Shown: positions 35,214 through 36,817 of the stretch, one piece after another
How positions within the stretch are numbered: position 1 is the first letter of the stretch
How the letters are laid out: the number at the start of each line of letters is the position of its first letter
Assembly: GCA_030529135.1 (NCBI GenBank)
Contig: JAUMXO010000006.1
Location: forward strand, 1 to 49,883
From: Candidatus Saccharimonadota bacterium
GTDB lineage: Bacteria; Patescibacteriota; Saccharimonadia; Saccharimonadales; Saccharimonadaceae
Length of the DNA stretch: 49,883 bases
Direction: 5' to 3'
The notes under the pieces: model-generated
What the model saw: only the letters and a program-made list of their open reading frames with translations
Database searches by the model: none
What the model was told of the DNA's origin: nothing
Translations under genes and position numbers: made by a program

Positions 35214-35260
35214 ATTATAACATATTTATTATTTACAAAATATTCATCTGGTGATATAAT
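35214..35260. promoter_or_regulatory. Divergent promoters of uvrD-type gene and HTH-murA
   Basis: TATAAT (35214-35219, minus) is 6 nt before the helicase ATG. TTTACA (35232-35237), a 17-nt spacer and TATAAT (35255-35260) lie 6 nt before the murA GTG. Confidence 0.75.
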
Positions 35261-35266
35261 TAAGTA

Positions 35267-36817
35267 GTGAAAAAACCGAAAACCTATCAAGAAGTCATTG
35301 GTGAGACTATCGAACAAATGCGCACCGACAAAGGTTGGACGCAAGGTGAACTCGCCGAAGCTACTGGTACCAGCCAGTCGGCTATTCATCGTATTGAAAA
35401 AGGTGGCCAAAACGTCTCCCTAGAGATGATTAAAAAACTTTCCGAAGCCCTCGGCACCCAAATTCTCTCTATTAATGATTCAGTCTCCCAAAGTTTTCGT
35501 ATTCGTGGCGGCAAAGAGCTAAGCGGTGAAATTACAGTCAACACATCTAAGAATGCTGCTGTTGCTCTCCTTATGGCTGCACTTCTAAATTCCGGCAAGA
35601 CCATACTCCACCGAATCGCTCGTATAGAAGAAGTTTTTCGTATTATTGAAGTCCTAGAATCTATCGGCGTGAAATGTCATTGGCAAAATCGCCATCGAGA
35701 TTTAGAGATTATATCACCACGCGAATTAAAACTAGAACAAATGGATGTAGAGGCCGCCAGAAAAACCCGTTCTGTAATTATGCTACTTGGTCCTTTACTC
35801 CATCGCTACAAAGAATTCCAACTTCCCTACGCCGGTGGCTGTTCGTTGGGCGTCAGAACTATTGAACCGCATCTAAAAGCTCTGGAATCTTTTGGTCTTA
35901 AAGTTGACGCTGAATCAAACAGTGGCTTCTATCAAGTTAAAGTCAACCAACACACACTTAAGAAATATGAAGATCGCTACATTGTTTTAGTCGAACGTGG
36001 CGACACTGTCACCGAAAATGTCCTCATGGCTGCTGCTCTTAGCCCTGGTCGCACTACTATTGTCGGTGCCTCGTCTAATTATATGGTCCAAGATATGTGC
36101 TTCTTTTTGGAAAAGTTGGGCGTTAAAATCTCTGGTATCGGTACTACCACTTTAGTAATTCGTGGTAGATCCACCATTGATGCAGACGTAGAATACAATC
36201 TTTCTGAAGACCCAATCGAAGCCATGAGCTTTATTGCTGCTGCCTACGCCACCCACTCCGAAATTACCATCCGTCGTGCGCCTATCGAATTCCTCGAAAT
36301 TGAACTTGAAATTCTGAAATCCATGAATGCTAGATTCAAAAAAACCAAAGAATACCTCGCTGCCAACGGCCGCACTCGTTTAGTGGATCTAAAAATCTTA
36401 AAATCCGATTTAATTGCACCAGTCGACAAAATCCATCCAATGCCATTCCCTGGTCTTAATATCGATAATCTTCCATTCTTCTCAGTAATTGCTGCTGTCG
36501 CTGAAGGCCGTACCATGATCCACGATTGGGTTTTCGAAAATCGTGCCATTTACACCACCGAGCTATCCAACCTTAATGTCAAAGTAGAACTACTAGATGC
36601 TCACCGTCTCTACGTTGAAGGACCTACTAATTGGCGCCCAGCTGAGCTCGTTGCTCCACAAGCACTTCGCCCAGCCGTAGTAGTATTAATTGGAATGCTC
36701 GCCGCTCCTGGCACCTCTATCCTCAGAAATGTCTATTCTATTAATCGCGGTTACCAAGACTTTGCCGTACGGCTCCGCCATCTTGGCGCCGACATTACGC
36801 CTCTTACCGGTATTTAG
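35267..36817 (+). CDS. murA: MurA with N-terminal XRE-type HTH domain
   Basis: Residues about 5-70 form a Cro/C1-type helix-turn-helix (RTDKGWTQGELAEATGTSQS...IHRIEKG). From about 76 to 516 the protein is UDP-N-acetylglucosamine 1-carboxyvinyltransferase, the first committed step of peptidoglycan synthesis, with K95-N96 in NTSKNAA and active-site C192 in AGGCSLGVRTIEPH, so it keeps the fosfomycin-reactive cysteine. Usual MurA is about 420 residues; the extra length is the HTH. The fusion could let the enzyme bind DNA and adjust expression to substrate. The GTG start lies 6 nt after TATAAT. pgk follows 18 bp later with its own -10 box. Confidence 0.9.
   Translation: MKKPKTYQEVIGETIEQMRTDKGWTQGELAEATGTSQSAIHRIEKGGQNVSLEMIKKLSEALGTQILSINDSVSQSFRIRGGKELSGEITVNTSKNAAVALLMAALLNSGKTILHRIARIEEVFRIIEVLESIGVKCHWQNRHRDLEIISPRELKLEQMDVEAARKTRSVIMLLGPLLHRYKEFQLPYAGGCSLGVRTIEPHLKALESFGLKVDAESNSGFYQVKVNQHTLKKYEDRYIVLVERGDTVTENVLMAAALSPGRTTIVGASSNYMVQDMCFFLEKLGVKISGIGTTTLVIRGRSTIDADVEYNLSEDPIEAMSFIAAAYATHSEITIRRAPIEFLEIELEILKSMNARFKKTKEYLAANGRTRLVDLKILKSDLIAPVDKIHPMPFPGLNIDNLPFFSVIAAVAEGRTMIHDWVFENRAIYTTELSNLNVKVELLDAHRLYVEGPTNWRPAELVAPQALRPAVVVLIGMLAAPGTSILRNVYSINRGYQDFAVRLRHLGADITPLTGI

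Follow-up and report, generated by a model that had tools for sequence, protein, structure and literature searches.

The biotin protein ligase BirA regulates biotin genes, and its dependence on ligand is established. This group II ligase exists in forms with and without a DNA-binding domain according to an excerpt of PMC4016012, the former having an N-terminal helix-turn-helix (HTH) on an essential enzyme, an arrangement shared by the locus that we describe here. The locus differs from BirA in the enzyme and in the type of HTH, and its main target would be its own gene, with a role for a ligand that is proposed rather than established. Trifunctional PutA provides a similar comparison as an autogenous trigger enzyme, though PutA is a ribbon-helix-helix protein of proline catabolism, whereas our fusion carries an XRE domain and belongs to peptidoglycan synthesis. 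The XRE antitoxins HigA and HipB have the same HTH fold, and antitoxin-like XRE genes of one family (f40) lie behind palindromes related to the one found here, but the fusion is joined to an enzyme and no toxin partner was seen. BzdR, as presented in an excerpt of PMC6079105, likewise attaches a DNA-binding domain to an enzyme-type domain, related to shikimate kinase, though it is a regulator of benzoate catabolism and no essential enzyme of the cell. A search of open-licence papers found neither a fusion of the present kind nor transcriptional self-control by a DNA-binding MurA; the papers that matched it dealt with type IV secretion (with nothing on MurA in the passages considered), lipocone domains and PchR of Bacillus subtilis.

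MurA performs the entry step of peptidoglycan synthesis and is the target of fosfomycin, and Saccharibacteria are tiny cells that mostly live on other bacteria. Cultivated strains of them that are naturally competent are described in an excerpt of PMC12857230. In the stretch of DNA analysed, from Candidatus Saccharibacteria (the window; 49,883 nucleotides), a MurA-type enzyme is fused to an XRE domain, and we consider it probable, at roughly 0.8, that the fusion is an autogenous repressor, or "trigger enzyme", resembling BirA or PutA. If so, wall synthesis in Patescibacteria would have its sensor and its switch in a single protein.

A MurA-type enzyme with an XRE domain

Besides the fusion gene (Table 1), no EPSP-synthase-family gene was found in the window's genome (G000), which is 97% complete. 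Its enzyme part matches Pfam EPSP_synthase over the cut-off (residues 80–500, E 3.1e-50) and the NCBIfam MurA subfamily model PRK09369 with 323 bits compared to a cut-off of 297, but does not reach the stricter murA equivalog TIGR01072 (300.4 bits compared to 392.7), which indicates a divergent branch and is why we speak of a MurA-type enzyme. In an alignment with E. coli MurA (117 identities among 416 aligned residues), the residues that we take to be the catalytic set of that enzyme (K22, N23, R91, C115, R120, D305, R331, R397) are all kept, as K95, N96, R168, C192, R197, D400, R426 and R494. The earlier note had described an intact HTH before an intact MurA with Lys-Asn and Cys active-site residues, and this description holds, since the HTH_3 match is also over its Pfam cut-off, the recognition helix is intact and the residues in question are K95, N96 and C192. 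Judged from sequence, the protein is a MurA-type enzyme with predicted catalysis.

The AlphaFold2 model (pLDDT 85) consists of two folded parts with a short uncertain linker between them, and has HTH helices at residues 7–22, 26–33, 37–45 and 52–62. Compared to known structures it matches MurA chains at Z 44; NikO and AroA were considered as the identity of the enzyme and rejected at Z 39 and Z 35. As expected of a trigger enzyme, a DNA-binding domain and an intact catalytic domain lie in one chain. The HTH also matches PRK08154 of NCBIfam (anaerobic benzoate catabolism regulator), under the cut-off. The position of E. coli Asp369 is occupied by Ala (A466), as in nearly all aligned rows of the patescibacterial MurA branch, and residues 243–247 deviate from the E. 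coli stretch 160–164; substrate binding in this branch, with no Asp369 and an altered 160–164 stretch, may deviate as well.

A survey of MurA N-termini in 379 genomes of the phylum, the check proposed by the earlier note, found the fusion throughout the rest of the order (31 of 31 genomes) and in 19 genomes outside it, one of which (G047) has a degenerate HTH; other orders of the same class gave weak matches only. All of the named Saccharibacteria loci considered (the best 80 of 134) are fused, a recurrence that rules out an assembly artefact, and the nearest named records, among the matches listed from these best 80 of 134, are mostly gut MAGs, largely ruminant. The fusion is present in 37 of 40 near genomes, a set that contains G000 itself, and in 2 of the 37 it appears as split matches; of the remaining three genomes, one has free XRE matches only and two lack any match. 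For 118 genomes of another order, rows counted by hand gave 39 with the fusion and 9 with the same MurA type lacking the HTH. In an 84-row tree built from the MurA portion, fused genes are nested and the state changes about 7 times; we read this as one gain with several losses, though the tree leaves a single gain unproven. By this distribution the fusion is ancient, occurring across the order and in many further Patescibacteria. One genome (G676) has two fused murA copies (L454 and L479), with a similar operator at both.

Table 1. Features of the xre-murA locus in the window, with related sites elsewhere in its genome
Feature	Position	Strand	Basis or remark
-35 box TTTACA	35232..35237	+	sequence; 17 bp to -10
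Operator O1, TATTCATCTGGTGATATA	35241..35258	+	between -35 and -10, overlaps -10
-10 box TATAAT	35255..35260	+	sequence
xre-murA fusion gene	35267..36817	+	GTG start, 516 aa
XRE (Cro/C1-type) HTH domain, aa 15-66	35309..35464	+	Pfam HTH_3 E 5.9e-15; four modelled helices
Ser36, at recognition helix	35372..35374	+	covaries with operator base (Ser-T, Thr-G)
Recognition helix, aa 37-45	35375..35401	+	model; TSQSA core nearly invariant
Codons 67-68, CTC TCT	35465-35470		synonymous constraint
Linker, aa 68-74	35468..35488	+	low confidence in model
MurA domain, aa 75-516	35489..36814	+	profiles, E. coli alignment, structure comparison
Candidate second operator O2, inside murA	35710..35727	-	one mismatch to pattern
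C192 codon	35840-35842	+	alignment with E. coli MurA
A466 codon	36662-36664		E. coli D369 position
Exact operator sites in G000	murA promoter; small RNA promoter; inside rlmH; one 236 bp further on
Conserved small RNA, ~100 nt	L135:1523-1627 (G000:C17)		genus-restricted; operator at its promoter
Secreted-protein gene	L136:1737-3018 (G000:C19)

An operator over the murA -10 box

Reading upstream sequences, we recognised an inverted repeat over the -10 box of murA. The GTG lies only 6 nt downstream of this box, so the transcript is probably leaderless. A regular expression found TATTCATCTGGTGATATA exactly in 77 of 80 genus murA upstream regions (best 80 of 134 named loci); of the other three sites, one was missed by the upstream cut, one is reversed, and one precedes galU (named by eye from sequence) in a galU-murA operon. 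The window's genome has 4 exact matches in total, and outside the genus the operator takes the form TATATCAT-N2-ATGATATA. An operator at its own promoter, also expected of a trigger enzyme, is thereby found in silico.

When two or fewer mismatches are considered, the operator is present at 98 of 111 fused genes, many of them from one genus and with L107 and L127 classed as degenerate rather than fused, compared to 0 of 28 genes that are unfused or have a degenerate HTH, and shuffled sequences seldom equal this. Phylogenetically independent pairs are concordant at the same threshold in 6 of 6 cases (sign test p 0.031). Of 39 fused genomes from other genera, 13 contain the exact palindrome TATATCRYNNRYGATATA, each a single time and at murA, compared to 1 of 16 unfused genomes, where it lies away from murA; a control pattern gave 0. 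Only a second set comes near to being out-of-sample, as the patterns were derived from the first, and the two sets share ancestry: here the core is perfect in 35 of 38 fused genes compared to 0 of 7 unfused ones, or in 33 of 36 new fused genes when G327 and G301, seen beforehand, are set aside (L460 was too short and was left out). Among 65 fused genes from outside the genus, 13 show at least 2 mismatches in the 14-bp core, those from genus g24 having a longer-spaced form of the operator instead, and in the second set a clear site is lacking at L446 and L463. In L046 the best motif match sits at a different place and was left unassigned. Inverted repeats sought upstream of murA with no motif given scored no better than shuffles; the specific motif alone did better.

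A few related lineages (f33, G571, G681 and others) have indeed lost the recognition helix, an outcome that the earlier note had named as refuting its idea, but the operator is absent there too, and the idea is backed rather than refuted. For instance, G571 of family f40 has neither HTH nor, by eye, operator site. These natural losses provide matched controls. In family f33 the HTH on MurA is degenerating and the operator is absent (L107, L127), a natural decay of a regulator.

In its genus-level form the operator has a right half that doubles as an extended -10, so its conservation is in part that of a promoter. The whole palindrome might then be a mere AT-rich extended -10 element, given that TGATATAAT is a frequent -10 in the genus and that tsaD promoters without the left half retain such a -10. 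However, the left half is missing from those tsaD promoters and from unfused murA, and the copy inside murA is synonymously constrained (below), which leaves this explanation very improbable.

Residue 36, at the recognition helix, is Ser in most fused proteins and Thr in some, and was compared with the operator base that precedes the central C in each half-site. Of the 94 half-sites of Ser genes in the first set, 75 have T and none has G, while Thr goes with G in 5 of 6. The second set, from another order, gives Ser with T in 26 of 32, Thr with G in 29 of 38 and Ala with A in 2 of 2, so that 55 of 70 Ser/Thr half-sites fit and 0 of 20000 permutations were as good; without G327 and G301 the Thr–G count is 26 of 34, and a single genome supplies both L454 and L479. 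L448 and L449 are clear exceptions, pairing Ser with the Thr-type operator (G). This natural series of helix residues and operator bases is a ready test of XRE recognition.

The covariation also bears on two other roles for the HTH. It could be a structural or oligomerisation module that binds no DNA. This may be so in HppE, a fosfomycin enzyme; its chains 2bnn, 1zzc and 1zzb match the HTH model at Z 7.0–7.1, and no DNA binding is known for it. With a near-invariant recognition helix and a covarying operator, however, we see hardly any room for such a role in the fusion. The operator could also belong to an XRE regulator distinct from MurA, such as an antitoxin-like protein, with the related HTH of MurA only dimerising or competing. 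Free-standing antitoxin-like XRE genes of family f40 (L429, L431, L432) do lie behind similar palindromes (TAAC/GTTA, three loci, by eye) and have Lys at the position of residue 36, which hints that the MurA HTH was derived from such an XRE. Yet the operator vanishes once MurA is without its HTH, and its base tracks a residue of MurA's own helix, and we regard a separate owner as unlikely.

We thus prefer the fusion itself as the protein at the operator. That the enzyme may bind DNA, as the earlier note put it, is well supported in silico by the intact helix, the operator, their joint loss and the covariation; the DNA that the fusion probably binds is its own promoter, and the enzyme probably doubles as the switch of its own gene. 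In the proposed mechanism the XRE domain, presumably dimeric, would bind the inverted repeat over the -10 box, the occupied operator would shut RNA polymerase out of the promoter, and sufficient MurA would turn its own gene off (negative autoregulation); we infer the binding itself, repression rather than activation, and dimerisation. The first strand of MurA, directly after the HTH, presumably lies near the hinge of the two MurA domains, so closure driven by substrate could alter the spacing of the heads in a dimer. Open and closed MurA, with UDP-GlcNAc or UDP-MurNAc, might in this way differ in affinity for the operator, and the fusion might sense UDP-GlcNAc, as the earlier note supposed, or some other ligand.

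Candidate operator sites inside murA and elsewhere in the genus

The centres of O1 and the candidate O2 are 469 bp apart, and O2 is present with one mismatch or none in 68 of 80 genus genes (best 80 of 134 named loci). Codons 147–154, over O2, are the most synonymously constrained window of murA, with an entropy deficit of 1.15 compared to a gene mean of 0.21 (sd 0.19) in 67 genes, 69 of the 80 having passed the filter and 67 being under 95% identity. Ile149 is ATA in 66 of 67 genes (usual 12%) and Ser150 is TCA in 66 of 67 (usual 21%). Similarly, at the site inside rlmH, ATA is kept in 13 and TCA in 14 of 14 loci, which had been fetched for tsaD. A by-product of conserved protein motifs was considered for both sites and is overturned by this synonymous conservation. 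Looping between O1 and O2 would perhaps strengthen repression. A second synonymous constraint lies in the linker region, at codons 67–68, which are near-fixed (66 of 69 and 69 of 69 genus genes) and are accounted for by no operator.

Exact sites occur in 40 of 40 genus genomes, 219 in total compared to 1 for the reversed pattern, a control that is blind to promoters and protein motifs; 60 regions of listed sites were fetched, and target genes were named by eye from translations, with no profile search. The operator stands at 15 of 30 tsaD promoters in the genus and at def in 3 loci. Further matches lie inside murE, a MurD-like ligase gene, trmL, argS and trxB, and since these genes were collected through the operator pattern itself, a protein motif could still be the origin of those matches. 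Of the wall-gene control suggested by the earlier note, the part that stands is murA, by the operator at its own promoter, while the inner sites of murE and the MurD-like gene are suggestive only.

The small RNA has its operator between TTGACA and the -10, an invariant loop around AAACTGCGAGG, and a stretch ATGTATGACCT before the terminator. A model that leaves out the promoter detects this RNA in 32 of the 40 genomes of the genus and, weakly, in 1 of 27 others. Among 15 of these RNAs found independently of the operator, a hand count gave 10 with the exact operator and 5 with one mismatch; the weak matches L374–L377, which did not pass the core-motif filter, are excluded from this count. Rfam has no family above its gathering score for this RNA, and base pairing with murA was no better than with shuffled targets in 8 pairs. 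A small gene was considered in its place and rejected, as the frame after ATGTATGACCT enters the terminator and diverges (by eye).

With the operator spread to the small RNA and to translation genes, MurA in this genus would be the regulator of a small regulon. A wider proposal, which we hold only tentatively and think rather less likely to be right than wrong, makes MurA a global regulator of growth whose active-site state would set the expression of its targets. Its scope would be murA (the O1–O2 loop pair) and the small RNA; tsaD, rlmH, def, argS and the TrmL-like methyltransferase, for tRNA/rRNA modification and translation; and the wall ligases murE and the MurD-like gene. If true, peptidoglycan precursor supply would directly tune translation in a regulator-poor epibiont.

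Control of host-interaction genes, also suggested by the earlier note, finds no support here save for one operator of G000, the site past rlmH, which precedes the gene of a secreted protein, whereas relatives have this site at the promoter of tsaD. In G000 this gene lies between the operator and tsaD, and several relatives have tsaD directly after the operator.
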